A stretch of DNA of 64,000 bases from an uncultured Planktomarina sp. Its GTDB lineage: Bacteria > Pseudomonadota > Alphaproteobacteria > Rhodobacterales > Rhodobacteraceae. Shown here piece by piece: positions 44,187-59,347 of this stretch (the stretch's first letter is position 1; each line of letters starts with the position of its first letter). The notes below the pieces were generated by a model, which was not told where the DNA came from, ran no database searches, and was given only the letters and a program-made list of their open reading frames with translations. The translations under genes were made by a program, and so were the position numbers. The DNA is taken from NCBI GenBank assembly GCA_905182455.1, contig CAJJBJ010000002.1, positions 496,001-560,000 on the forward strand. The letters run 5' to 3'.

Positions 44187-44986
44187 CTATGGTTGGCTGT
44201 TAAAGATGAACAACGCCTGACCGTTTATTGTATACTTATTGATGATATCTTTGGCGCGCCTAGAGGTCAGCCAATGCTCAAGCCTCACAGCCGCCTCAGC
44301 ATTGACATGGCCGTGCTTAGCTGGATTAACGGGGAGATAGGCATATTGGTTGAACAGCTTGGGATCGCCTGAAAACAGCAAGCCCAAACCGCCTTTGTTG
44401 CCGAAATTCAACCAGCTGGCCCGATCAGCCATGATATAGGCGTCAAGCCCAGAGGCGCTGTTTAGACTGGCACCCATCCCCGAACCAACACCTTTGTACC
44501 ATGCCCCGAATTGTTCCGGCTCAAGGGCCGCCTCCGACCAAAGCGCCAACTCCTTTTTATGGGTGCCGCTGTCATCGCCGCGGCTGACAAATGTGGCCTC
44601 AGCAGTCGCAATACGCTGAAGCGCCTGAGCGGCGGTAGCTGAAGTTTTGATCATGGCAGGGTCTTGTACGGGGCCAATCAGGACAAAATCATTATACATG
44701 ATTTCTCGCCTGTGGGTGCCAAAGCCATCGGAAACGAAGGCCTCCTCCGCAGTTTTGGAATGCACTAATATCGCGTCCACGTCCCCCGCCTGCCCCAATC
44801 GGATCGCCTGTCCCGTACCCACCACCAGCAATTGAACATCAATGCCTGTATCCATCTTGATCGCAGGTAAAAGCACATCCGAAAGCCCAGAGTTGTTAAA
44901 ACTGGTTGTTGCCGCCAAACGCAGGGCTGGGCCTGGGCCTGGGCAGCTGTGGTGATCATCATAAGGGCAAGCAACATGCGGATCAT
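44187..44986 (-). CDS. tupA: Tungstate ABC transporter substrate-binding protein TupA (signal peptide out of frame)
   Basis: Periplasmic tungstate-binding protein. The mature part is intact from LRLAATTSFNNSGLSDVLLP (the oxyanion-binding TTS turn) to the C-terminal HWLTSRRAKDIINKYTINGQ. The proper start is the ATG at 44984-44986, which overlaps the tupC stop (ATGA) and reads the signal peptide MIRMLLALMMITTAAQAQAQ; one base is then missing near 44926, in a short GCCCAG repeat, before the mature frame. In the mature frame the open stretch runs upstream to 45002 without a signal. Last gene of tupBCA, and part of the formate dehydrogenase run. Confidence 0.87.
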
Positions 44987-45699
44987 TCGATGATATCTCC
45001 ATTCAAAAATGCCTGTGCCTCTGATGTGGAGGGCGCTGCAAAAAACTTTGACGCCGCGCCATGCTCATGCAAGGCACCATTCATCAAAAACAACACAGAA
45101 TCCGCCAAACGTCGAGCTTGGCCAAGATCATGCGTGGTCATGATAATACGGGTTCCGGCCTTTGTTGCGTCATATAAAAGCTCTTCGATCTCTCGTGTAG
45201 AGCGGCCATCCAGATTGGCGCAGGGCTCATCCAAAAACAGCACTTTGGGCATACGGATCAAAGCCCGCCCGAGCGCCAATTTCTGTTTTTCGCCCCCAGA
45301 GAGACGCGGTGCGGGAAAATCCAACGCATCTTGTAATCCGGTTTTTTGAGCCCAATCCACAACCCGGCTGGCAATTTCGGCCTTATCAATACCAATAAGT
45401 TGCAAAGGATAGGCCAAGTTTTGCCGTACGGATCGGCGTAACATGATCGGGCTTTGAAACACATAGGCCTGCGCCTCGCGCACCTGCGCATTCGGAATGG
45501 ACCATTGTACGGAGCCACGTGAGACACGCTCAACACCGTGAAGCACTTTAAGCAAAGTGGTTTTTCCCGCCCCATTTGGCCCCAAAACGATTGTAAAGCC
45601 ATCCGCTTGTAAACAGAGGTCCACGGGTCCCAACACGGTCTTACCGCGGCGTTTGACCACAACAGAATCTAGGCAAACAGAAATGGCCGGGCTCACCAT
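44983..45699 (-). CDS. tupC: Tungstate ABC transporter ATP-binding protein TupC
   Basis: ATPase of the tungstate importer, 238 residues. Walker A GPNGAGKTTLLKVLHGV near residue 36, signature LSGGEKQKLALGRALI, Walker B VLFLDEPCANLD. The start overlaps tupB by seven bases and the stop overlaps tupA by four. Confidence 0.93.
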   Translation of the reverse strand: MVSPAISVCLDSVVVKRRGKTVLGPVDLCLQADGFTIVLGPNGAGKTTLLKVLHGVERVSRGSVQWSIPNAQVREAQAYVFQSPIMLRRSVRQNLAYPLQLIGIDKAEIASRVVDWAQKTGLQDALDFPAPRLSGGEKQKLALGRALIRMPKVLFLDEPCANLDGRSTREIEELLYDATKAGTRIIMTTHDLGQARRLADSVLFLMNGALHEHGAASKFFAAPSTSEAQAFLNGDIIE

Positions 45700-46397
45700 G
45701 TGCCCTCCTGTTCTGTACGCGACAACGCATGAATGGCCAAGTTAACCACCAATGTCAGAGTGATAAGCACAAAACCCAATCCCAAAGCCAAAGCAAAGTC
45801 TCCCTTTCCGGTCTCCAGCGCAATGGCTGTGGTCAGCACACGCGTGGCATGGTCAATATTGCCACCTACGATCATGATAGCGCCCACCTCGCCAATCGCC
45901 CGGCCGAAACCTGCTAAGGCCGCAGTCATCAAGGTGCGTCGGCCATCCCAGATCAAAGCCACTACTCTCTGGCGTTTGGTTGTGTTTAAGGAGATCAGCA
46001 AGTCGTGATATTCCGACCACAGCTCGCGCATAGCTTGATGGGTGATGGAGGCGATCAGAGGCGTGATAATGATCACCTGAGCGATGATCATGGCAGTCGG
46101 GGTGAACAGGAGCCCCATAACACCAAACGGGCCCGAGCGTGACAGCAGCAGATAAACCACCAAGCCCACTACCACCGGGGGCAAGCCCATCAGCGCGTTG
46201 AGCACTGCAATCGTAAAGCGACGATAGCGAAATCTCCGAATTGCCAGCCAAGTCCCAAAGGGAAGAGCCAAAGCGGAGGCGATCACCAAAGCGGTCAGGC
46301 TGACCTCGAGAGAGCGTAGAGTTATTTCAATTAGATCTGCATCAAGAATGAAAATAAGCCGGAAAGCTTCTTGTACGCCGGCCCAAATTTCATTCAT
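45693..46397 (-). CDS. tupB: Tungstate ABC transporter permease TupB
   Basis: Inner-membrane permease, 234 residues, about five to six helices. The first helix region SLTALVIASALALPFGTWLA and the EAA-type loop containing FGRAIGEVGAIMIVGGNIDH match TupB. It follows a 42-residue membrane protein gene by 30 bp and couples to tupC. Confidence 0.93.
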   Translation of the reverse strand: MNEIWAGVQEAFRLIFILDADLIEITLRSLEVSLTALVIASALALPFGTWLAIRRFRYRRFTIAVLNALMGLPPVVVGLVVYLLLSRSGPFGVMGLLFTPTAMIIAQVIIITPLIASITHQAMRELWSEYHDLLISLNTTKRQRVVALIWDGRRTLMTAALAGFGRAIGEVGAIMIVGGNIDHATRVLTTAIALETGKGDFALALGLGFVLITLTLVVNLAIHALSRTEQEGTW

Positions 46398-46641: not shown

Positions 46642-48047
46642 CTATTTTACCGGTGGAGTCTTTTTGGGTTTGGCCGCGGCCGCCTTTTTAGGCTTTGCAG
46701 CAGCCGCTTTAGTAGTTTTTGCAGCAGGCACCTTGGCAGCCTTCGCAGCTGGCGCTTTAGCAACCTTCGCAGCTGGCGCTTTCGTAGTTTTCGCAGCTGA
46801 CCCTTTAGCAGCACCTTCGCAGCAGTGGCCTTGGCTGCCTTCGAAGCAGGCGCTTTAACAGCCCTTACCGGCTTGGCCACGACAACCTCTTCCCCAAGAA
46901 CTTCCGCAACCCAAAGAGAATGGTGTTCACGCGCCCACTGCTCTTCCACTTCACCCGATCCCATAGCATCGTAAGCGCCTTCCATACCGACAGTTCCGAT
47001 ATAGATATGCGCTAAAATAATCGCCATTAGCACAAAGCTGACGATGGAGTGCCAAAGCTGGGCATATTGCATTTCTTCGTGAGGAGCCAAAGTTTCACGC
47101 AGCTCACCAAAACCAAGCAATCCACCAATGCCCGTGGCATTGATCTTCGCAAAGGTCGCGGCAAACATGTTAAGCTCGAAAGGAAACAGCAGCGACACGC
47201 CCGACACAGAGATCGAAAGCCCAAGGACGATGACCGACCAAAAGATCAGCTTTTGCCCGGCATTGAACTTCTTTGCTGGCGGGTGCCCCTTTGAGAAGAT
47301 GCCGCCACCTTTACGCAGCCAGTTGATGTCACTGCGATGTGGAATATTTTCCGCAACCCACATGACAAAAATCATCCCGAGCGCCAACATAAACGCCCAA
47401 GATACATTGTTGTGCACCCATTTGGAGCCAACAGCGATAAACGAAAACGCGTCATGCCCAAAGGTGGGTATCAAAAACTTGCGGCCAAAGAGCGAAATCA
47501 GTCCGGTCAAACCCAGCAGAATAAAGGATCCTGAGAGCAACCAATGGCCAAAGCGCTCGATTGCCTTAAAGCGTGTGATCTTGCGGCCGGTCTTTTCACC
47601 GTCAATTTTAATGCGGCCACGGTACATGAAAAAGGCGGCCAGCAGGGCAATCATGCCCATCAAGAGCGCGCCGCCATATGTGGCCAGCGGTCCTGAACGA
47701 AATTTCAACCAACTCATGCCACCGTCTTGGATTAAGACTGTCGCGGCGGGGCCGGTGTTGGAGGCAGTGATGTCAGCAGAGCCAAAGCGCAGGGCGCGCC
47801 AGAGTTCTGGATCGGAATTCCCGCCCAAGGTGCCAAGCTGGTTTGTGATATCAGCGGCCCGGCTGGCGTCGCCAGTGGCGTCGCTGCGAAAGCTGTTGTC
47901 CACGGCCTCACCGCTTTGGCGGGCCATAATATCCTCAAGGGTCTGTGCGCCCCCGGTGGCGCTGCGATCAGGCGCGTCGGCGCTTTGCGCACTCGCGGTT
48001 GATAGGAATGACAGGGTCAAAATCAAAGCAATCAAAGCACGCAACAT
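46642..48047 (-). CDS. fdhC: Formate dehydrogenase gamma subunit (cytochrome b556), with frameshifted Lys/Ala tail
   Basis: Membrane anchor that passes electrons from formate to quinone. A signal-like start (MLRALIALILTLSFLSTASA) precedes a periplasmic stretch, then four main helices with heme-ligand histidines (RFGHWLLSGSFILLGLTG, WVHNNVSWAFMLALG, WHSIVSFVLMAIILAHIYIG). The core ends near EVLGEEVVV. After that the reading frame gives a Leu/Arg-rich tail ending at 46647, but with one base restored near 46810 the tail becomes AAKGSAAKTTKAPAAKVAK-type Lys/Ala/Pro repeats ending TPPVK with a TAG at 46642-46644. The repeat frame is very probably the real one. Confidence 0.9.
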
Positions 48048-48128: not shown

Positions 48129-48722
48129 TTAGCCGCCTTTTTGGTCGTAGGCTGTACCCCAGCCCCAAGCACCGGAGCCGAAGCCACGAGACACGACCCG
48201 TTCACGGTAGATGCCGGAGACAACGTCGCCGTCACCTGCCAAAAGCGCCTTAGTGGCACACATCTCGGCACAGATTGGCAATTTGCCTTCTGCAATTCGA
48301 TTGCGGCCATATTTGGCAAATTCGGCTGTAGAGTGGTTTTCCTCTGGGCCACCGGCGCAGAAGGTACATTTGTCCATCTTGCCACGTGATCCAAAGTTGC
48401 CAGCTTGTGGAAACTGCGGCGCGCCGAAAGGACACGCGTAGAAGCAATAACCACAACCAATGCAGAGGTCTTTGGAGTGCAAAACAATTCCTTCATCACT
48501 CTGGTAAAAACAGTCTACAGGGCAGACCGCCATACAGGGTGCGTCGGAACAGTGCATGCAGGCCACGGAAATCGACCGTTCGCCCGGTGAGCCGTCATTG
48601 ATCGTGACGACTTTCCGGCGGTTGATGCCCCATGGAACTTCATGCTCGTTTTTACACGCGGTGACGCAAGCGTTGCATTCAATGCAGCGTTCAGCGTCGA
48701 CGAGAAACTTTGCTCTTGCCAT
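48129..48722 (-). CDS. fdhB: Formate dehydrogenase beta (iron-sulfur) subunit
   Basis: Electron-transfer subunit, 197 residues, with ferredoxin-type cysteine sets: CIECNACVTACKNEHEVPWG (Cys13, 16, 19, 23), CMHCSDAPCMAVCPVDC, CIGCGYCFYACPFGAP and CTFCAGG with a later CAEMCATKA. This gives four [4Fe-4S] sites, as in FDH-3 type beta subunits. No transmembrane anchor is present at the C-terminus. It starts 13 bp after fdhA. Confidence 0.95.
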   Translation of the reverse strand: MARAKFLVDAERCIECNACVTACKNEHEVPWGINRRKVVTINDGSPGERSISVACMHCSDAPCMAVCPVDCFYQSDEGIVLHSKDLCIGCGYCFYACPFGAPQFPQAGNFGSRGKMDKCTFCAGGPEENHSTAEFAKYGRNRIAEGKLPICAEMCATKALLAGDGDVVSGIYRERVVSRGFGSGAWGWGTAYDQKGG

Positions 48723-48735
48723 TTCTCAGGTCTCC

Positions 48736-51630
48736 TTATGCTGTCCAGATTTTGCAGAGAGTGGCTTTAGTCTCCTGCATCTGGGTCACTGAATCATAGC
48801 CATAGGTTTGAGCGGTGTTTGAGCTTTCACCCAAAACGAAAGGATCTGCCCCGTCAGGATACTTATCCCTGAGATCGACACCTTCCAAATGGCCGCCGAA
48901 GTGGAATGGCATAAACGCAACGCCCTCGCCAACCCGTTCCGTCACCATGGCCATAACTTTGACCTTAGCTCCTTCGGGGCCTTCCACCCAAACCTGCACG
49001 CCGTCACGAACACCGAGATTATTAGCGTCTCGAGTATTAATTTCAACAAACATATCCTGCTGTAATTCAGCAAGCCATGGGTTTGAACGTGACTCGTCTG
49101 CACCACCCTCATATTCTACCAAACGACCCGAAGTTAGGATCATCGGATACTCTTTCGAGAAGTCTTGTTTCTGGATTGAAGCATACATGGTTGGAAGGCG
49201 ATAGAATTTGCGATCCTCATATGTTGGATAGTCTTCAACCAAGTCACGACGGTTGGTGTAGAGCGGCTCACGGTGAACGGGCACTGGATCCGGGAAGGTC
49301 CAAACAACAGCGCGAGCTTTTGCATTACCAAATGGCGCACATTCATGCGCAATAGCAACCCGCTGGATACCACCGGAAAGATCGGTTTTCCAATTGGTTT
49401 TTACGCCAGCTATACCGTCGATTACCGACCGTTCTGCTGCCGTCAGCTCGTTGTCCCAACCAAGATCTATCAGCATCTGCATTGTAAACTCAGGATATCC
49501 ATCTTTTATATCTGAATCTTTGCTGTATACGCCTTCGGCTAACATGTTGTCGCCATCACGTTCCACACCAAACCGGGCACGGAATGTAAGACCACCCTCA
49601 GAAACACGCTTAGACAAGTCATACAGGTTTGGCGTGCCTGGATGCTTCATATCTGCACTGCCCCAAGACGGCCATGGCAGTCCATAGTAGTCGCCATCTG
49701 CTGGACCACCAACGGCTTGAAGCGTCGTACGGTCAAACGTATGTTGATTTTCCATATGCATCTTAATGCGTTCTGGGCTTTGACCGGTATAACCGATTGT
49801 CCACATACCACGGTTAAACTCTCGCGTAACCGACTCAATATTAGGAGTCTCTGGGTCTTCCATCTCGATATTCCGGAAGAAACGATCAGCCCAACCAAAT
49901 TTATTCAAAAACTTGGCCATAATTACATGATCAGGCAAGCTTTCAAACAACGGATCCACCACTTTATCACGCCATTGGAAAGAGCGGTTCGAAGCAGTAA
50001 CGGAACCACGTGTTTCAAACTGTGTACAAGCAGGCAGCAGGTAAACACCATCGGTGCGGTCGTGCAAAATGGCTGAAACAGTTGGATAAGGATCAACGAC
50101 GACCAACATATCCAGCATCTCCATCGCAGTCTTCATCTCCTTCAGACGAGTTTGTGAGTTAGGAGCATGGCCCCAAAGCACCATAGCACGGACTTTGTCT
50201 GGATTATCCATGTTGTCGGGATCCTCAAGGACACCATCAATCCAACGCGATACTGGAATTCCAGTAAGGTTTTGAAGAGACTTATCTTTGCCTTGCGCAT
50301 CTTTTACAACATCGAACTGCCCCTTAAGCCAGTCCCCGTCTTCCTCCCAAACACGCGCCCAGTGAGCCCAAGCGCCTGCAGACAGGCCATAGTATCCAGG
50401 AAGTGTATGGCTAAGTACGCCCAAATCGGTCGCACCTTGAACGTTGCAGTGGCCACGGAAGATGTTTGTACCACCACCAGATGTGCCCATATTTCCAAGT
50501 GCCAACTGCAGGATACAGTAGGCACGTGTATTATTGTTACCGTTACTGTGCTGTGTGCCACCCATGCACCAAATTACCGTACCAGGGCGGTTGTTGGCCA
50601 AGGTCCGCGCAACACGGCGCAGCTGCTCACCAGGAGCCCCTGTCACACGTTCTACTTCTTCTGGGTTCCACTTGCGGACTTCATCTTGGATTTGATCCAT
50701 GCCCCAAACACGTGTGCGGATGAACTCTTTATCTTCCCATCCATTTTCAAAGATATGCCACAAAATACCCCAAACGAGCGCCACGTCAGAACCAGGACGG
50801 AAACGCACATACTCATCAGCATGAGCCGCCGTACGAGTGAAGCGTGGATCACAAACAATCACAGGTGCATTGTTTTGCTCTTTAGCTTTCAACAGGTGAA
50901 GCAAAGAAACAGGATGCGCCTCGGCTGGGTTGCCGCCGATGATGAAGATTGATTTTGAATTGTGGATGTCGTTGTAGCTGTTTGTCATGGCGCCATAGCC
51001 CCATGTATTCGCAACACCGGCAACTGTGGTCGAGTGACAAATACGGGCTTGGTGGTCAACGTTATTTGTACCCCAATAAGCCGCAAATTTACGGAACATG
51101 TAAGCTTGTTCGTTACTATGTTTCGCAGAACCCAGCCAATAGACTGAATCCGGTCCGCTTTCTTCGCGGATTTTCATCATACCGTCGCCGATCTCATCGA
51201 TCGCCTGCTCCCAGCTGATGCGTTTCCACTCTCCACCCTCTTTTTTCATCGGGTATTTCAAGCGACGTTCGCCGTGTGCGTGCTCGCGCACCGCAGCACC
51301 TTTGGCGCAATGTGCACCTAGGTTAAATGGGCTGTCCCAGCCGGGTTCTTGACCCGTCCATACTCCGTTGCTGACTTCAGCGATGACAGTACAACCCACT
51401 GAACAATGCGTACAAACAGACTTAATCGTCTGTACGGCACCATCTACAGCGGATGCTGCTGAAGCTTGGGTAACTGAACCACCTGTTGCTGAAATGGCCG
51501 CAAGGCCACCAATCGCCAAACCACTTCCGCGCAGAAACGCGCGTCGGTCGACAGATTTCTCTGCAACGTCAGATAGGATTCCAGTCCGTTGGGAGCGTCT
51601 CGCAACCCCGTTGGTCTTTTTCCTTAACAT
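48736..51630 (-). CDS. fdhA: Formate dehydrogenase alpha (catalytic) subunit, Mo/W-bis-MGD, Tat-exported
   Basis: Oxidises formate to CO2 in the periplasm. It is 964 residues. The Tat motif DRRAFLRGSGLAIGG starts at residue 28. A [4Fe-4S] site is CTHCSVGC (Cys73, 76, 80) plus Cys near residue 108 in GAHCAKGA. The metal ligand is Cys198 in ARICHSTTV, so no selenocysteine is needed; the neighbouring HS pair is the conserved catalytic His. The tungstate importer in the same run suggests tungsten may be used. The start follows GGGGAGG. A very long antisense frame is a shadow. Confidence 0.96.
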   Translation of the reverse strand: MLRKKTNGVARRSQRTGILSDVAEKSVDRRAFLRGSGLAIGGLAAISATGGSVTQASAASAVDGAVQTIKSVCTHCSVGCTVIAEVSNGVWTGQEPGWDSPFNLGAHCAKGAAVREHAHGERRLKYPMKKEGGEWKRISWEQAIDEIGDGMMKIREESGPDSVYWLGSAKHSNEQAYMFRKFAAYWGTNNVDHQARICHSTTVAGVANTWGYGAMTNSYNDIHNSKSIFIIGGNPAEAHPVSLLHLLKAKEQNNAPVIVCDPRFTRTAAHADEYVRFRPGSDVALVWGILWHIFENGWEDKEFIRTRVWGMDQIQDEVRKWNPEEVERVTGAPGEQLRRVARTLANNRPGTVIWCMGGTQHSNGNNNTRAYCILQLALGNMGTSGGGTNIFRGHCNVQGATDLGVLSHTLPGYYGLSAGAWAHWARVWEEDGDWLKGQFDVVKDAQGKDKSLQNLTGIPVSRWIDGVLEDPDNMDNPDKVRAMVLWGHAPNSQTRLKEMKTAMEMLDMLVVVDPYPTVSAILHDRTDGVYLLPACTQFETRGSVTASNRSFQWRDKVVDPLFESLPDHVIMAKFLNKFGWADRFFRNIEMEDPETPNIESVTREFNRGMWTIGYTGQSPERIKMHMENQHTFDRTTLQAVGGPADGDYYGLPWPSWGSADMKHPGTPNLYDLSKRVSEGGLTFRARFGVERDGDNMLAEGVYSKDSDIKDGYPEFTMQMLIDLGWDNELTAAERSVIDGIAGVKTNWKTDLSGGIQRVAIAHECAPFGNAKARAVVWTFPDPVPVHREPLYTNRRDLVEDYPTYEDRKFYRLPTMYASIQKQDFSKEYPMILTSGRLVEYEGGADESRSNPWLAELQQDMFVEINTRDANNLGVRDGVQVWVEGPEGAKVKVMAMVTERVGEGVAFMPFHFGGHLEGVDLRDKYPDGADPFVLGESSNTAQTYGYDSVTQMQETKATLCKIWTA

Positions 51631-51993: not shown

Positions 51994-52599
51994 CTAAGCC
52001 GCAGTCATTCTGAACGCTTCGCGTTCAATCTCGATAAAAGCCCGACCTACGCTGCCTATAGAGGCGTAGAGGATCGAGTTTTTCGCCCCCTCAAGGTCGG
52101 AAAAGAAATGCCCGGCCCAAGGTGCTATATGCCGGTTGAAGAAAAGTTTTTGGTCGTTCAAATCTACCGGCGCTACGAAGCGCCCTACGATCATCCCACC
52201 CATCATTTCCATCAATGAGGCAATATTGTCTTCCGGCTCAAACACATTTGGCGAGCGCACCATGCCGCGTGTTGACATGTCCGTGCGCAGCGTAGCGAGT
52301 GGTTTTTCGTTGAGAAATCCAGTAAGGTAGTAGCTGGCATAGGGCAGTAATTCACCACGTCCCAAGCCCACAAACAATGCGTTGAACTCGCTTTCAACTT
52401 TCTTAGGCTTTGACACCCGAGCGACCCGCGACAGGCTGCTTATGGCTTTGCCAAGCTCACCATCATCTCCAGACAGGCCAACGCATTGATTGATCAGTAG
52501 CTGATCCGGTGGTCCAGACAGCATCAAGCCAAGAAAGTTATAAAGGTCAGCGCGCAAACGATCCTCTGAAGCGACTTTAATTTCTTGAGCAACGTTCAC
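51994..52599 (-). CDS. TorD/DmsD-family molybdoenzyme chaperone
   Basis: All-helical cytoplasmic chaperone (201 residues) that binds the Tat leader of a molybdo- or tungsto-enzyme until its cofactor is inserted. The N-terminal ADLYNFLGLMLSGPPDQLL and the central ELLPYASYYLTGFLNEKPLA (carrying the conserved PYxS-type motif) match the family. It overlaps the DUF3306 gene by four bases. FdhA is the obvious client. Confidence 0.9.
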   Translation of the reverse strand: MNVAQEIKVASEDRLRADLYNFLGLMLSGPPDQLLINQCVGLSGDDGELGKAISSLSRVARVSKPKKVESEFNALFVGLGRGELLPYASYYLTGFLNEKPLATLRTDMSTRGMVRSPNVFEPEDNIASLMEMMGGMIVGRFVAPVDLNDQKLFFNRHIAPWAGHFFSDLEGAKNSILYASIGSVGRAFIEIEREAFRMTAA

Positions 52600-53204
52600 G
52601 CAGCATTCTCCTCAATTACAAATTTCATCCGACGCGGTGATGGGGATAACAAATCCACATGCTCCTCTTCCAGCTCAGCATAAGATTCGACAGCCTCGGC
52701 ACTTTCAGCATCGTCTTCAGAAACCGCCATGAGCGTCTCTGCTTCGTCCTCAACCTCTTCCTCCAAAACCTCAGGTTCTGTCGGGTTCTCACGTTCTTCA
52801 GCCTGACGGGCCATTTCTTGGACATGTTTCAACATGCCCTTGCCCACCTGATATGCGGTTTGGATATTCTCAACAGCCATGGCCGCGTCGGTAAAGTCCT
52901 CGCCATAATCCACCAGCATGTCAACATTTGCTAAGACCGGATTGGAACGCCACAGGGTGCGTAGCGCGCGGCGCCGGATTCGATCCGGCACGGCCTTGGA
53001 CATAAATACTGAAAAATCATCGCCCATTACCAATGTGTCAGGATCAGGTAAATCTAACTCCTCAAGCAACTCTGCATCAGTTTTCTCTTCCAACACTGCA
53101 TGTTGTTCTGCCAATACAAGCTGTTCAACTGCGGCTTGTTCAGCTAGCGTTTCAGCTTCCACCTTCGCCTTACGGCGGGCCCAAAAGTCCTGCTCACCGC
53201 TCAA
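52596..53204 (-). CDS. DUF3306 domain protein (formate dehydrogenase accessory)
   Basis: A 202-residue soluble acidic protein. The DUF3306 core is SGEQDFWARRKAKVEAE at the start and PDRIRRRALRTLWRSNPVLAN abridged here as RRRALRTLWRSNPVLA near residue 80, followed by VDYGEDFTDAA. The C-terminal 70 residues are nearly all Glu/Ala/Val. Found with DUF3305 and TorD at fdh loci; function unknown. Overlaps its neighbours on both sides by four bases. Confidence 0.88.
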   Translation of the reverse strand: MSGEQDFWARRKAKVEAETLAEQAAVEQLVLAEQHAVLEEKTDAELLEELDLPDPDTLVMGDDFSVFMSKAVPDRIRRRALRTLWRSNPVLANVDMLVDYGEDFTDAAMAVENIQTAYQVGKGMLKHVQEMARQAEERENPTEPEVLEEEVEDEAETLMAVSEDDAESAEAVESYAELEEEHVDLLSPSPRRMKFVIEENAA

Positions 53205-53785
53205 TGCACCGTCTCCTTCGCGGACGGCGCACGGTAAACATCTGAGGTTTGACGAATACGCGCATCACCGATACCATTTTCCTCACGGTCGACACGACTT
53301 TTGTCACGGCGACGTTTTATGAACACTTCATCTTCGTGGTGCTGCTCTACGTAATCCCGGATCCATGCCACCAAACCCTCGGGCATAGGCACTTTTTCGA
53401 CAAGCTCTTCACCCGTGTCTGCATAGTCTTGGGCTTCGTATGGCGAAGCAGTTGCCAAAACCACATCCAGAGGATCAGCCCCTTCGCTCTCGCGCATTAC
53501 AACGTAGATCGCAGGGATCTTGGTCGACAGGCCATGCAGATAAGCTTCCGTATCTGTCCTGAACAATTCAAGCGGTACTGTTGCGGCATGGTATTCGATA
53601 ACGTCGCCATCGCGGCGCAGCTCTTTCCAATGAGCCGGACCCGCTCCGGGTAAAACCGCAACGGCCTTCCAAACGTGATCGACCCAGCGCGTCACGCCGG
53701 GAACTTTGCGGATAACAATCCCCAAAGGTATCGATACAGATTTTTGAACAAGTGCGTGCAATTTCTTCTCAGTATTTAAAACCAT
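53201..53785 (-). CDS. DUF3305 domain protein (formate dehydrogenase accessory)
   Basis: A 194-residue soluble protein. The core reads SIPLGIVIRKVPGVTRWVDH, VWKAVAVLPGAGPAHWKEL and LVAWIRDYVEQHHEDEVFIK, with the C-terminal basic RRRDKSRVDREENGIGD. First gene of the long fdh accessory-structural-tup run. The ATG at 53783-53785 lacks an obvious ribosome binding site, and a -10-like GTATAC lies 8-13 bases upstream, so it may have a very short leader. A palindrome 20 bases upstream may control it. Confidence 0.88.
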   Translation of the reverse strand: MVLNTEKKLHALVQKSVSIPLGIVIRKVPGVTRWVDHVWKAVAVLPGAGPAHWKELRRDGDVIEYHAATVPLELFRTDTEAYLHGLSTKIPAIYVVMRESEGADPLDVVLATASPYEAQDYADTGEELVEKVPMPEGLVAWIRDYVEQHHEDEVFIKRRRDKSRVDREENGIGDARIRQTSDVYRAPSAKETVH

Positions 53786-53911: not shown

Positions 53912-53941
53912 TTGAACTAAACAGCATATTATGTGTATAGA
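53912..53941 (+). promoter_or_regulatory. Candidate sigma-70-like promoter of the ferredoxin gene
   Basis: TTGAAC, an 18-base spacer and TATAGA with TG just upstream, in an AT-rich stretch 170 bp before the TTG start at 54109. It is downstream of the orphan terminator. The rest of 53786-54108 is AT-rich with no other recognisable feature. Confidence 0.3.
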
Positions 53942-54108
53942 CAAAGCTTTTCCGAGTATTTTTATCAGGTATTAAAGAAATTTCATTCGCAGACGCAGCA
54001 TTTAGCGCTGTTAGAAACTACAAAAGAAATACGGTTTACGAATTGCGCAAATCAGGTCAGACCTACTGCAGCGCCGCCGTGTTCGGCCCGCGATCGAGGA
54101 GAATCAAA

Positions 54109-56077
54109 TTGGCGAAAAAACTTATTCTGTGCGATTGTTTGGGCTCTCAAGCGTTTGATGCATCGGCCATTTCCGAACGCTTCAGGTATGGCGTGTTCCA
54201 AGATTTATAGCAGTCTTTGCGAAGGCCAAATCGACTTAGCCGCAAAAGAAATTTCCGAAGGTGATGTGATAATTGCCTGCCAACAGGAGCGTCAAAGATT
54301 CGAAGAATTGGCGGAAGAGCTAGAGGTGGAAACACCAGCCTTCGTCGACCTGCGCGACCGAGCTGGCTGGGGCGAAGGCAATGTTTCACCAAAGATGGCG
54401 GCATTGGTCGCTGAGGCCGGATTAACGGCCTTTGCAGGCCAGATGGGCAAGTCGATTGATATTATTTCTGAAGGCACTTGCTTGATCATTTCCGGCCCCT
54501 CTGGCGTCGATGCCGTGATGCAGGCCGCCACCGATTTATGCGAAACTCTGGCCGTTACAGTTTTGGTGTCAAACGCCGAGCATGTGCCGATGGACCGCAG
54601 GTTTGATTGCGTTTTAGGCTCGGTGAAAAACGCCACTGGCGCCCTTGGTGGATTTACCCTAAAAATTGATGGGTTACAGCAAGTTATCGTCGGAGGACGC
54701 GGTGCATTTAACCTCACGCCGCCGCAGGATGGCGCGGCGTCTCAGTGCGATATAATTGTGGACCTCAGCGGCCAAAACCCGATGTTCCCGGCGCACGAAA
54801 AGCGTGACGGGTATCTGCGCGCAGACCCAACGCATGCTCCGTCTGTTGCCAAGGCCGTTTTTGCAGCGTCTCAAATGATCGGCACCTTCGAAAAACCTCT
54901 CTATGTAAGGCTGGAAGAAAGTCTCTGTGCTCATAAACGAGCCGAGCAGCCCGCATGTTCAAACTGCCTCAACGTTTGCCCGACTGGCGCGATTTTATCA
55001 GCCGGAGAACATGTGACAATTGACCCGATGATTTGCGCTGGCTGTGGATCATGTGCTGCAGTTTGTCCGTCAGGGGCCATCAGCTATGACGCACCGCCAG
55101 TCGATACTCTATTTCGCAGATTGAGCACCCTAGCCTCCACCTACACTCAAGCTGGCGGAGAAAATCCGCGGCTGTTGGTGCATGACGGCGCAACGGGCGT
55201 AGAAATGATTGCCCTTGCGGCGCGGTTTGGCCGGGGTTTACCCTCTGACGTAATTCCACTGGAAACTGACGCCCTGTCCGGCTTTGGCCATGCAGAAATC
55301 ATGGCCGCGCTGGCCTGCGGATTTGGTGAAGTTAATATCTTGGCCTTTCCAAGGTCCGAATTGGACGTGATTGAGGGTCAAATTGCCTTGGCAACCGCCC
55401 TATCCGGTCGCGACACCATTCATCTTTTGCAACCGGGTGATCCTGACGCGATGTCGGAGATGCTTTATAAAGAAATAGCTGCTCCTGTGGCTTGCGATCC
55501 AATATTGCCCATGGGCACCCGCCGCCAAGTGGCCAGATTGGCCGCCAAAGCGCTGCAACCAGAGGCCACTGTGGTAGAACTGCCTGAAAACGCGCCTTAT
55601 GGTGCTATCTTAGTGGATACAGACGCCTGTAGCCTCTGCCTATCATGCGTCTCGCTCTGCCCCTCTGGCGCCCTGGGAGACAACGAAGACTTGCCACAAT
55701 TGCGCTTCCAAGAGGATGCCTGTCTGCAATGCGGTTTGTGCGTCACTATTTGTCCTGAAAAGGCGATCACCTTGAAGCCCCAGATGGATCTGACCGATGC
55801 TGCATTCACCCAACAGGTTATGCACGAGGAAGAACCCTTTGCCTGCGTCGAATGCGGATCCCTATTCGGTGTGAAGTCAACCGTTGAGAAAATTACCGAA
55901 AAGCTTGCGGGCAAGCACGCTATGTTTGCCAATCCTGCAGCGGTCAAAATGATCCAGATGTGCGACAATTGCCGCGTTCAGGCGCAATACCACTCAACCG
56001 ATAACCCGTTTCAGGGCGGTGAACGCCCTCGAGTGCGTACATCAGACGATTATTTTTCGAAGCGCAAGGATCACTGA
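54109..56077 (+). CDS. Multi-cluster 4Fe-4S ferredoxin of the formate dehydrogenase region (N-terminus out of frame)
   Basis: Soluble electron carrier of about 655 residues. The real start is TTG 54109 after GAGGAG, reading AKKLILCDCLGSQAFDASAI, then the frame breaks between about 54170 and 54185 and continues as SGMACSKIYSSLCEGQIDLA in the frame that is open to the TGA at 56077. The long N-terminal reading from 53933 in the second frame is not real. Ferredoxin-type cysteine sets: CSNCLNVCPTGAIL with CAGCGSCAAVCPSGA (about 283-320), CSLCLSCVSLCPSGAL with CLQCGLCVTICPEKA (about 507-550), then CVECGSLFG and CDNC, a likely zinc or rubredoxin-like site. Partner is probably formate dehydrogenase. 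Confidence 0.82.
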
Positions 56078-56796
56078 GATTGCATTGGCGCGCCCAGAGA
56101 TGCTGGAACAATACCAGCAACATAGGCCACGATGGCCTCAATCTCCTCCAGAGTTACCTCTATAGGGACAATGGGCGACGGCAGCTTTGCGGAGAACGGT
56201 TCGGTCACGTCCTTAACCTGCGTAAATGCGGGATGGGGGTTAAGCGTAAAGAAGGCCTCAAACCGATTTTTCCAATCTGGAAACGTGCGCATCAGAGCAA
56301 AGGACGGGGTCGAGCCGATGGCCTTCATGCGGTTAGTGGCGTTGATCACGTGGCATCGCCCGCATTTTTTGAGACTCACCACCTCACCCTGGCCTGCGTC
56401 GCCGGTTATGGTGATAATCTGCGCCTCAAGCGCAGCTCCGACATCCGCAAAAAACGGCGGCTCATCGTCTCGTGTAAACCCCTCAATGGTGCGCTTGCCG
56501 ATGTCAGACAACAGCCATTGCGCAAACCGATCCGTATAAACACCATCAACCTTTTCAAGATGCCAGATCTTTTCACCTTGCCTAAACACGGCCACCCCAT
56601 CAGCTCCAAAAGCCGCATCTGCGCTCTCAGATACAGGGGTAATGCGGATACCAGTCTTCAAAGAAAACCGTGGCAAGAGGTGTTTTATAAATCCAGATTC
56701 AATCAAAATATCAGGAACTTGCAAGGCGAAGCTCTTGTCTTCCGACCAAGCCGGGCCAGCGATAAAAGCCACCACCAATATGATTTTTCGAAACAT
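56071..56796 (-). CDS. c-type cytochrome with a reduced TupA-like N-terminal domain
   Basis: A 241-residue exported protein. Residues 1-18 are a signal peptide (MFRKIILVVAFIAGPAWS). One heme site is CGRCH at 145-149, with candidate sixth-ligand Met in the following region. The part before it resembles the two ends of TupA: SGFIKHLLPRFSLKTGI has the same spacing (SGx4LLPx5TGI) as TupA SGLSDVLLPAIKMDTGI, and RFAQWLLSDIGKRTIEGF resembles the TupA end RLEHWLTSRRAKDIINKY. The middle of TupA is missing. It would be a small oxyanion-binding fold joined to an electron carrier. It is convergent with the ferredoxin gene (7-bp overlap) and divergent from DUF6494. Start ATG 56794-56796 begins the signal peptide. 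Confidence 0.82.
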   Translation of the reverse strand: MFRKIILVVAFIAGPAWSEDKSFALQVPDILIESGFIKHLLPRFSLKTGIRITPVSESADAAFGADGVAVFRQGEKIWHLEKVDGVYTDRFAQWLLSDIGKRTIEGFTRDDEPPFFADVGAALEAQIITITGDAGQGEVVSLKKCGRCHVINATNRMKAIGSTPSFALMRTFPDWKNRFEAFFTLNPHPAFTQVKDVTEPFSAKLPSPIVPIEVTLEEIEAIVAYVAGIVPASLGAPMQSQ

Positions 56797-56890: not shown

Positions 56891-57082
56891 ATGAGTGAAC
56901 ACTTCAACATGTCGATGCGTAAATTTTTAAAACAGGTTGGTGTGACATCCCAGCAAGCTATTGAAGAAGCCATGCGCAACGCCAGTGATACATCTGGAAA
57001 AACCTACACCGCCAAGGTAGTTCTCACCGTCGAAGGTATGGATTTTGAACATGTCGTCACCGGCAAGATTGAAGGTATTTAA
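56891..57082 (+). CDS. DUF6494 small protein
   Basis: A 63-residue soluble protein (MSEHFNMSMRKFLKQVGVTS start; TYTAKVVLTVEGMDFEHVVTG end) matching DUF6494. A helix followed by a beta hairpin is likely. The ribosome binding site AAAGGAC precedes the ATG by seven bases. It abuts the Mrp gene with no gap. Function unknown. Confidence 0.85.
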   Translation: MSEHFNMSMRKFLKQVGVTSQQAIEEAMRNASDTSGKTYTAKVVLTVEGMDFEHVVTGKIEGI

Positions 57083-58138
57083 ATGTCTATATCCCGCGAA
57101 GAGGTTCTTGCTTGCCTAAAAACCATCCAAGCGCCGTCTGGAGTTGATCTGGTCGAAGCTGGACTGGTACGCGCCCTAACCGTCACCGAAGGTGCTGTGC
57201 GCTTTGTGATGGAGGTTAGTACCCCGGATCCTTTCATGCCTGCAAAAGCCGAAGCGGAAGAAAAGCTGACGGCACTTGGCTGCACATCGGTCTCAATCGT
57301 GATGACTGCTCACAGCCAACCCACTGCACCGCCGAACCTGCAACCCAGCCGCAAAGCAGAGCCAGCAGGCCCAGAAAAGATCCCTGGTATTGATAGAATT
57401 ATTGCAATTGCCTCTGGTAAGGGCGGCGTTGGGAAATCGACTGTGGCGGCAAATTTGGCCTGTGCTCTGGCGGCCGAAGGTCGCCGCGTTGGCATGTTGG
57501 ATGCAGACGTTTACGGCCCATCGCAGCCTCGTATGTTGGGCGTCTCAGGCAGACCACAAAGTCCCGATGGCAAGATCATCCTGCCCCTACGCAACTTTGG
57601 CGTCACTATGATGTCCATCGGCCTTATGACCAATGAAGATCAGGCCGTGGTTTGGCGTGGCCCAATGCTGATGGGAGCCTTGCAACAAATGCTTACACAG
57701 GTTCAGTGGGGAGCTTTGGATGTATTGATTGTAGATCTTCCACCCGGCACCGGCGACGTGAACATGACATTGGCCCAAAAATCCCATGTGGACGGAGCAA
57801 TCATCGTCTCCACCCCTCAAGATGTGGCCCTGATGGACGCGCGCAAGGGCATAGACATGTTCAATCAGCTTGGGACGCCAATTATTGGTATGATCGAAAA
57901 CATGAGCACGCATATTTGTTCACAATGTGGCCATGAAGAGCATGTCTTTGGCCATGGCGGCGTGAAGGCGGAAGCCGAAAAACTCGGCGTGCCTTTGCTG
58001 GCAGAAATTCCACTGCACCTTGATATTCGTATCGCGGCTGATGGCGGCGCGCCGATTGTGGTGTCAAAGCCGAATTCATCGCAAGCCCAAGCCTTCCGCA
58101 CCCTGGCAAAAAATCTGATTGAAAGTGGTCAGGCATGA
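57083..58138 (+). CDS. mrp: Mrp/NBP35-family iron-sulfur carrier ATPase
   Basis: Scaffold or carrier for Fe-S clusters (ApbC type), 351 residues. An N-terminal MIP18-like domain (about 1-80) precedes the deviant Walker A ASGKGGVGKSTVAANLACAL near residue 110 and the dimer-bridging cluster site CSQCGHEEHVFGHGG near residue 279. It probably loads the many clusters of FdhA, FdhB and the ferredoxin, an inference from position. It overlaps the next gene by four bases. Confidence 0.94.
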   Translation: MSISREEVLACLKTIQAPSGVDLVEAGLVRALTVTEGAVRFVMEVSTPDPFMPAKAEAEEKLTALGCTSVSIVMTAHSQPTAPPNLQPSRKAEPAGPEKIPGIDRIIAIASGKGGVGKSTVAANLACALAAEGRRVGMLDADVYGPSQPRMLGVSGRPQSPDGKIILPLRNFGVTMMSIGLMTNEDQAVVWRGPMLMGALQQMLTQVQWGALDVLIVDLPPGTGDVNMTLAQKSHVDGAIIVSTPQDVALMDARKGIDMFNQLGTPIIGMIENMSTHICSQCGHEEHVFGHGGVKAEAEKLGVPLLAEIPLHLDIRIAADGGAPIVVSKPNSSQAQAFRTLAKNLIESGQA

Positions 58139-58839
58139 ATACGCCCAGCTTTCCTCCGCTGTTTAGCGGGTTGGCTGTTGAAGGCCAGGTTGACCCTTTT
58201 GATAAGGCCTGCGCCGAGGCGGCCCGTGGCTGTGATGCAGGGTTGGTGGTCCATGATTTGGGAGCAAACTTGCTGCGCGCAGCCCTGGTTTTTGCGCCCG
58301 ATGTCGAGCTGGTTGATGCTATGGCGATGCTGCCACTCTGCGGGGTTGGGTTTCAAAATGCCTTGGGCGCCCTCGGACCACCTGAAGTGGCTGTCCATCT
58401 TGAATGGGCCGGCGGCCTTCGGATCAATGGTGCCAGTTGCGGCACGCTGCGGGTTGCGGCCTCAAGCTCCAATCCGAGGGCTGAGCCAGATTGGATGGTG
58501 ATAGGCCTTGAGCTGCCACTTTGGCCGGAAACCGATACACCAGGCGACATCCCTGAACAAACTGCGCTTTACGCAGAGGGCTGTGCGGATGTAAACGCAA
58601 TGGAGCTACTTGAGTCTTGGGTGAAGCACACATTGGTGGGCATCAACACTTGGACCGAAGACGGTGTAAAAGCCCTGCATAAAGACTGGCGCGGCCTGTC
58701 ACATGGCATTGGCGAAGATATCACAATGAATGAGGTCTCAGGTACATTTCTTGGGGTAGATGAACAATTTGGGATGTTGGTCCGGGCGGCTGATACCACC
58801 CATCTTGTCCCACTGACCTATTTGCTGGAGGGCACCTGA
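58135..58839 (+). CDS. Biotin/lipoate protein ligase-like protein (DUF4444 type)
   Basis: A 234-residue protein with a biotin/lipoate A/B ligase-like core. The N-terminal PFDKACAEAARGCDAGLVVH and the central AVHLEWAGGLRINGASCGTL fit the family as I recall it; the C-terminal SGTFLGVDEQFGMLVRAADT is the DUF4444 domain. No lipoyl or biotinyl acceptor gene is near. It lies within an fdh accessory module, so it may have a different role there. Confidence 0.82.
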   Translation: MNTPSFPPLFSGLAVEGQVDPFDKACAEAARGCDAGLVVHDLGANLLRAALVFAPDVELVDAMAMLPLCGVGFQNALGALGPPEVAVHLEWAGGLRINGASCGTLRVAASSSNPRAEPDWMVIGLELPLWPETDTPGDIPEQTALYAEGCADVNAMELLESWVKHTLVGINTWTEDGVKALHKDWRGLSHGIGEDITMNEVSGTFLGVDEQFGMLVRAADTTHLVPLTYLLEGT

Positions 58840-58840
58840 T

Positions 58841-59347
58841 ATGATGCTAGCGCGCGCAATCCATTTTGACGAAAGCGACATGAACGTCTTTCACTCTTCA
58901 GCGCGCACCGGCGAATGGTGCATATCGGGCGGGTTTGAGTTTTCAAATTGGTCTGAAGCGGACCTGACAGGCAAAGCGCGCCAAGCCTTTTCCAATGGAT
59001 GGCTGGGAGCTGAGACTTTTGGGCGGGTCACCTTTGTTGCGGTGACAAAGGTTGAGCCCATGGAATACGAAGCCATCAAACAGGCACTGGCGCAACATTT
59101 TGTTCAAATGTACGGCGCGCCCTCGCTGGAAGCCGCCGCTCAAGTGGCGGAAGACGAATTGGCTCATATGGTAGAGCTGTGCAACGACCAAGACCCCAAC
59201 ACATTGCTGACGGTCGCACGTGATTTGACGGAGTCCGGCGTGAAAGAAAGTTTTCGTATGATCGAATCCCAAGACGCTGGCTTAGACCAATTCGCGATTC
59301 ACGGGTCGTTGGACGAAGAAGACCACGGTCACGGCCACAGCCACTAA
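58841..59347 (+). CDS. DUF6505 family protein
   Basis: A 168-residue soluble protein. FHSSARTGEWCISGGFEFSN near the start and the basic-acidic mix QAFSNGWLGAETFGRVTFV match DUF6505. The C-terminus EEDHGHGHSH is His-rich and could bind metal. It starts two bases after the ligase-like gene and ends the DUF6494-Mrp-DUF4444-DUF6505 operon. Function unknown. Confidence 0.83.
   Translation: MMLARAIHFDESDMNVFHSSARTGEWCISGGFEFSNWSEADLTGKARQAFSNGWLGAETFGRVTFVAVTKVEPMEYEAIKQALAQHFVQMYGAPSLEAAAQVAEDELAHMVELCNDQDPNTLLTVARDLTESGVKESFRMIESQDAGLDQFAIHGSLDEEDHGHGHSH

Follow-up and report, generated by a model that had tools for sequence, protein, structure and literature searches.

Why should a small cytochrome encoded beside a formate dehydrogenase begin with part of the tungstate-binding protein TupA? 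The question is raised by one gene in the window, that is, the whole stretch of 64,000 nucleotides of Planktomarina DNA that was analysed. A first-pass annotation had proposed that this gene encodes a shrunken TupA-like domain joined to a heme domain, able to sense or hold tungstate or formate and also to move electrons. The open reading frame was found where it had been placed (Table 1), and a shrunken TupA-derived domain on an exported CxxCH protein of the fdh-tup cluster was borne out by the analyses described below, whereas the sensing or holding of tungstate or formate was not. As judged from profile comparisons, the product is an exported c-type cytochrome, the residues ~19-118 of which descend from TupA.

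Table 1. Fusion gene, parts of its product and neighbouring genes in the window, with the basis of each assignment
Feature	Position	Strand	Basis or remark
CDS, half-TupA/cytochrome c fusion, 241 aa	56071..56796	(-)	ATG 56794-56796, stop 56071-56073
Sec-type signal peptide, residues ~1-18	56743..56796	(-)	by eye from sequence; predicted helix 2-12
TupA-derived domain, residues ~19-118	56443..56742	(-)	profiles, predicted fold, conservation
Linker, residues ~119-131	56404..56442	(-)	pLDDT 63 at residues 121-130; fast-changing
Class I-like cytochrome c domain, residues ~132-236	56089..56403	(-)	Pfam Cytochrom_C
CGRCH heme attachment site, residues 145-149	56350..56364	(-)	C145, C148, H149 in 130/130
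His188, predicted sixth heme ligand	56233..56235	(-)	kept in 130/130; ligand role inferred
TupA, full length	44187..45002	(-)	NCBIfam TupA E 5.7e-54, under 400-bit cut-off; PDB 3muq, 3lr1, 5my5
TupC-like ABC ATPase	44983..45699	(-)	ABC_tran
TupB-like permease	45693..46397	(-)	BPD_transp_1
FdhC, cytochrome b gamma subunit	46647..48047	(-)	TIGR01583 above cut-off
FdhB, FDH3 beta subunit	48129..48722	(-)	NF038355 above cut-off
FdhA catalytic subunit	48736..51630	(-)	TIGR01591 E 2.2e-138, under cut-off; Tat-like RRAFLRGS start by eye
TorD-type chaperone	51994..52599	(-)	Nitrate_red_del; TorD model under cut-off
DUF3306	52596..53204	(-)	
DUF3305	53201..53785	(-)	
Multi-4Fe-4S protein, convergent to cytochrome gene	53933..56077	(+)	start codon unsure
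DUF6494, divergent from cytochrome gene	56891..57082	(+)	
Mrp/NUBPL-type Fe-S carrier	57083..58138	(+)	
Biotin/lipoate ligase-like protein with DUF4444	58135..58839	(+)	
DUF6505	58841..59347	(+)	

The cytochrome gene is flanked on one side by the divergent DUF6494-Mrp group and on the other by the convergent multi-4Fe-4S gene, and the DUF3305-DUF3306-TorD-FdhABC and TupCBA-type genes lie nearby. By eye, translation of the 4Fe-4S protein may begin later than the listed GTG (53933-54187), a Met near 54188 being likelier as its start.

In agreement with the earlier reading, the motif SG-x4-LLP-x5-TGI was equally spaced in the fusion protein (SGFIKHLLPRFSLKTGI) and in the TupA of the window (SGLSDVLLPAIKMDTGI), and the WL helix of the fusion, said to mirror the end of TupA, paired with the TupA C-terminus. 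Since the BLASTP comparison of this single pair (E 0.097) was too weak to decide, family profiles were used. Relatives were matched in 13 of 61 genomes, the source genome included, and were encoded on 386 stretches of a genome-contig collection, the best 80 of which were used. A profile of the N-terminal domain built from 36 sequences was searched against 177,635 PDB sequences, and the top five chains were 3muq (E 3.1e-5), 5my5 (2.5e-4), 3lr1 (1.7e-3), 3cvg (4.5e-3; annotated as 'putative metal binding protein') and 3kn3 (0.089), all of which were also matched by the TupA of the window; an unrelated chain ranked sixth (E 0.27). Both segments of the domain were aligned in 3muq, 5my5 and 3kn3, one or both being weak when taken singly, while 3lr1 was aligned in the N-terminal segment only and 3cvg in the C-terminal segment only. 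The NCBIfam TupA model matched 27 of the 36 fusion members at E<=1 (best 7.7e-5), the window's own fusion protein not being among them, and its 400-bit cut-off was reached neither by the fusion nor by any match in 198 genomes of the host family, full-length tupA included. A Pfam scan of the lobe in the 36 members gave no periplasmic binding protein (PBP) match.

The profile-profile comparison with TupA (hhalign), a check that had been suggested beforehand, aligned the N-terminal segment at E 9e-5 and the C-terminal segment at 2e-5, in the correct order; for ~25 residues midway along the lobe the position on TupA was ambiguous, the global and local alignments disagreeing. When a profile of the whole protein was run over the 198 family genomes, a second, weaker set of matches appeared besides the fusions, and 72 of the 74 secondary matches listed fell on genes also found by the TupA model. 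Among the matches listed, at least 11 tupA genes were hit by both fusion pieces, colinearly and 150-168 aa apart. Homology is thus confined to the two ends of TupA and does not extend along its whole length, and the absence of its middle, followed by a CGRCH heme domain, is as the first-pass annotation had described it. With the relatives added to the comparison, the likeness to TupA was well beyond chance.

The AlphaFold model of the whole protein contained a block of pLDDT 95-98 at residues 21-110, pLDDT being lower in places within the heme region, and the N-terminal domain modelled alone was compact (pLDDT 92.5, pTM 0.85), with the order strand-helix-helix-strand-strand-strand-strand-helix-helix. 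The lobe had been folded by itself because a Foldseek search with the whole model was diluted by the heme part. Its top Foldseek chain was the TupA-type 3muq (probability 0.99, E 0.019), and the 50 rows listed also held 5my5 (0.98), 3kn3 (0.97) and 3lr1 (0.94), together with many PBP-fold chains, including maltose-binding protein fusions and LysR-type effector domains, and some unrelated ones. The TupA-type chains had TM-scores per query of 0.37-0.39 over 54-76 columns, no E-value for the lobe was under 0.001, and the unrelated chain 8g8w_C outscored 3muq by TM-score (0.49 vs 0.39). The lobe is therefore predicted to be one PBP-II lobe at modest Foldseek significance, a result in accord with the sequence comparison and not decisive by itself. 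An unrelated fold, which had been named as grounds for rejecting the idea, was not what the search pointed to.

In Desulfovibrio TupA, lobe A comprises residues 2-76 and 201-251 and lobe B residues 91-200, and the pocket is described as formed by Thr9-11, Ser12, His59, Arg118, Thr124 and Asp170, of which Arg118, Thr124 and Asp170 belong to lobe B (PMC5517513). The fusion retains parts of lobe A, namely the strand-helix-strand of the TupA N-terminus and the last helices, and lacks lobe B and with it the latter three residues. At the four columns of the TTTS motif, placed at window residues 27-30 through the 5my5 alignment, T or S occurred in 7, 4, 4 and 19 of the 114 distinct fused sequences, so that this motif is not retained either, and no His of the lobe is conserved to 90% across them. 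Compared with TupA (NF041772; 5my5, 3lr1, 3muq, 3kn3), the fusion thus shares the two ends in order, the PBP-like predicted fold and the neighbourhood, but lacks the middle, lobe B and the TTTS motif and has gained a heme domain. By its residues, the lobe is not a TupA-type tungstate binder, and a different, new ligand may have taken the place of tungstate. We hold with high confidence that origin from TupA and loss of the pocket apply to the lobe together.

The lobe nevertheless appears constrained. P42, R43, F44, K47, W94 and G100 were invariant in 114/114 fused sequences, the pattern by which sequences were cut demanding the P, R and K and dropping no fused sequence, and residue 51 was Arg in 101 of them. 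Selection was gauged from dN/dS in 49 disjoint pairs. Because the values across all pairs were saturated (median 0.32 for the lobe in 42 usable pairs, 0.31 for the cytochrome), the estimate was taken from the 11 pairs whose cytochromes were close (dN < 0.12, a limit chosen after viewing the table), in which the lobe ranged over 0.05-0.34 with a median of 0.12 and the heme domain had a median of 0.06. The lobe is thus, as estimated from these close pairs, under purifying selection, though less constrained than the heme domain.

The heme domain of the window protein scored 15.2 bits with Pfam Cytochrom_C, under the 21.3 cut-off, and 35 of 42 relatives matched this model at E<=1 (best 7.1e-5). 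C145, C148, H149 and H188 were present in 130/130 sequences, fused or lobe-less, which thus all carry the CxxCH of c-type cytochromes. The commonest Met column, 157, held Met in 103/130 but in only 4 of the 16 lobe-less sequences; beyond it no Met column rose above half, and none was conserved in all 130, so that the conserved Met ligand of His/Met class I cytochromes c is lacking. As His188 was the only invariant candidate for the sixth ligand, the heme is probably of the bis-His type, its axial ligands being His149 and His188. The domain accordingly resembles class I cytochrome c (PF00034) in its CxxCH and C-terminal helix, and differs in the invariant His188 and in the score of the window member. 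We infer that the fusion protein would be exported to the periplasm with one heme.

Among 198 genomes of the host family, sampled at nearly one per genus, the fusion was found in 74. These 74 contained a TupA match in every case, DUF3305 in 73 and FDH3 beta above cut-off in 72, the figures for the other 124 genomes being 64, 25 and 25, and all these co-occurrence counts being inflated by shared ancestry. FDH3 beta was counted above its cut-off only, because without this limit matches arise in 197 of the 198 genomes and in 13 of the 14 genomes used as controls; DUF3305 occurred in none of the 14 controls, and TupA in two, both under cut-off. The fusion genomes were therefore not of the kind devoid of tungstate or formate genes that had been cited in advance as evidence against the reading.

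Over the best 80 of the 386 loci, which are the closest relatives, gene order was nearly constant, in line with the position claimed for the gene at the edge of a tungsten-linked formate dehydrogenase cluster. The fetched flank held Mrp in 79 of these loci, the 4Fe-4S gene in 78, FdhA in 75 and tupB in 18, 12 of the latter also with tupA. Adjacency of tup to maturation genes of a tungsten formate dehydrogenase has been described in Methylorubrum (PMC13197769). The flank misses lay at contig ends except at one locus (L080, Oceaniglobus trochenteri), in which ~11 kb of other DNA (L197:3176-14327), starting by eye with a sulfhydrylase-like ORF, separates the cytochrome from the 4Fe-4S gene; beyond it, on the same contig, come the 4Fe-4S gene and then DUF3305, DUF3306, TorD and FdhA. 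The Mrp, lipoate-ligase-like/DUF4444 and DUF6505 genes (56891-59347, together with DUF6494 in the window) were found with the fdh cluster at almost all 80 loci, and were also kept in most cluster regions without the cytochrome.

In a sample of 385 genomes of the class, 19 matches were obtained at E<=1e-8, consisting of five family members and two others (f80) with the fusion, ten lobe-less cytochromes, and two proteins matching lobe residues 4-68 only. Among 299 genomes of the phylum, 17 matches were obtained at E<=1e-6, with the fusion only in six family members and the remainder restricted to the heme domain or to the lobe end. Roseibium carried the fusion at three loci (L088, L089, L092). 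Five of 72,556 plasmid records encoded it, annotated as 'hypothetical protein' (four) or 'c-type cytochrome' (one). In the three plasmid loci examined, DUF3305 and DUF3306 adjoin the fusion, and FdhA and FDH3 beta then follow in two, the third ending earlier. Since parts of the cluster thus lie with the fusion on plasmids of Tateyamaria, Sulfitobacter and Sagittula (L194, L195, L196), the cluster may move as a unit.

The fusion was missing from 25 of the 98 DUF3305 genomes of the family. No ORF of its family was detected in 20 cluster regions from these genomes, some of which reach a contig end, and two of the 25 (G023, G096) have a lobe-less cytochrome elsewhere in the genome. The dehydrogenase thus does not need the fusion protein. 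Conversely, lobe-less cytochromes were found in other alphaproteobacterial families, with a similar cluster at six loci (L140, L141, L142, L145, L146, L148), part of the cluster only at L143, and no queried cluster gene in the fetched flank at L144, L147, L149, L152 and L153. Their existence, and in particular that of a lobe-less cytochrome within the full cluster at L140, indicated that the function of the heme is independent of the lobe. At L142 the lobe-less cytochrome and a complete tupA are ~0.9 kb apart, with two small ORFs between, one of which (L142:8616-9035) encodes, by eye, a ModE-like helix-turn-helix protein. An arrangement of this type could be the source of a fusion, and the present one might have arisen so. 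A tree of 115 cytochrome domains (16 lobe-less and 99 fused, with identical and some near-identical fused rows omitted) was poorly resolved, showing five label changes, one of them forced by well-supported branches. A single origin of the fusion may suffice, as may several, and the three lobe-less cytochromes that fell among the fused ones without top support (L128, which is the gene of L140, L012 and L153) may be later losses of the lobe.

Fusions between a solute-binding-type protein (SBP) and the cytochrome serving a metal-dependent dehydrogenase are a known kind of protein. In Methylacidiphilum, the cytochrome XoxG is fused to the solute-binding-type XoxJ as XoxGJ, a redox partner of XoxF, the two being separate genes in some lineages (PMC8498564), and the loss of xoxG or xoxJ is reported to equal that of xoxF in methanol-lanthanum medium, both being needed for XoxF-dependent growth (PMC7391723). 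Like XoxGJ, the present protein joins an SBP-type domain to a cytochrome c near a metal-dependent C1 dehydrogenase (PMC8498564), with the difference that one lobe derived from TupA, in a putative role, stands in for XoxJ and a formate dehydrogenase for XoxF. The lobe profile matched seven PDB chains up to E 10, none of which was named as XoxJ or MxaJ. The fdh operons with a TorD/DmsD-type chaperone, DUF3305 and DUF3306 are also known already (PMC4464133). The present clusters have the same fdh genes, including FDH3 beta (NF038355), and differ in the fusion, which is a near-constant neighbour in the best 80 loci; a quarter of the DUF3305 genomes lack it, and several other lineages have the cytochrome without the lobe. 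The parts of that account dealing with the operons mention no such cytochrome (PMC4464133). Our literature search, made at the level of listings in a limited literature, returned no description of the fusion or of a single tungstate-binder lobe in such a role. The fusion represents a widespread, unnamed protein family.

With its predicted fold, its conservation and the purifying selection acting on it, the lobe should have a job. By analogy with XoxGJ, the likeliest reading, if still tentative, is that the fusion protein serves as an accessory electron carrier of a periplasmic formate dehydrogenase and that the TupA lobe provides its docking module. The Tat-like start of FdhA and the cytochrome b nature of FdhC imply that the dehydrogenase should face the periplasm, as should the fusion protein. 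After export, and carrying one heme whose axial ligands are probably His149 and His188, the protein would take electrons from the neighbouring FdhABC, beside or in place of FdhC and quinone, and the lobe would use the conserved basic residues Arg43, Lys47 and (mostly) Arg51 to dock the heme domain on a partner, for which the dehydrogenase is the simplest candidate. A point against this carrier is that FdhC already offers a quinone route. The protein could instead be a redox-active maturation factor that loads or activates FdhA, as has been suggested of XoxJ for XoxF, and takes no part in catalytic electron flow. The neighbouring Mrp Fe-S carrier, TorD chaperone and lipoate-ligase-like protein do look like maturation proteins, but Tat-exported enzymes receive their cofactor in the cytoplasm ahead of export; given the Tat-like start of FdhA, insertion is expected there while the fusion protein is exported, and clusters without the fusion are common, which makes this role unlikely.

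The descent of the lobe from the partner of TupB, the TupA match in every fusion genome and the tupB genes flanking some of the best 80 loci would suit a cytochrome that docks on the TupBC permease in TupA's stead and couples tungstate import to the periplasmic redox state. We consider this quite unlikely, as SBPs normally touch the permease with both lobes and TupA matches without the fusion were present in 64 of the other 124 genomes. A lobe that is no more than a neutral relic of an old fusion, or a spacer left by it, the heme domain alone being at work, would accord with the lobe-less cytochromes, three of them among fused ones in the poorly resolved tree, and with a dN/dS in close pairs roughly twice as high for the lobe as for the heme domain. 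Such a relic is nonetheless very unlikely in view of close-pair dN/dS well under 1, six residues invariant in 114/114, the confident predicted fold and the retention of the lobe in 74/198 family genomes. As for a heme-bearing sensor or holder of tungstate or formate, TupA ancestry and a place in a tup-linked fdh cluster invite the idea, but the loss of the TTTS motif and of lobe B with its pocket residues leaves it highly improbable, and this part of the first-pass annotation was not upheld.

Returning to the electron carrier docked by its lobe, the protein would be a candidate extra electron outlet for formate oxidation in marine Rhodobacteraceae-type bacteria, and the lobe was probably kept in many marine bacteria as a docking piece for electron transfer. 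The family looks like a path from transporter part to redox accessory. It is conceivable, although rather doubtful, that one lobe of a metal-uptake protein has turned into a dedicated docking or regulatory module which sets a bis-His heme of low potential on the tungsten formate dehydrogenase, or else on TupBC, and so physically links tungsten supply with periplasmic formate electron flow; if true, this would be an undescribed way of reusing half a solute-binding protein.

The C-terminal tail of FdhC in the window (46647-46800) crosses Ala/Lys/Pro-rich repeats, where the listed frame becomes Leu/Arg-rich while another frame retains the Ala-Lys pattern of the loci from two same-genus genomes (L014, L042). 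The reading frame seems, from this pattern, to shift inside the tail, which would be either genuine or a sequencing error.
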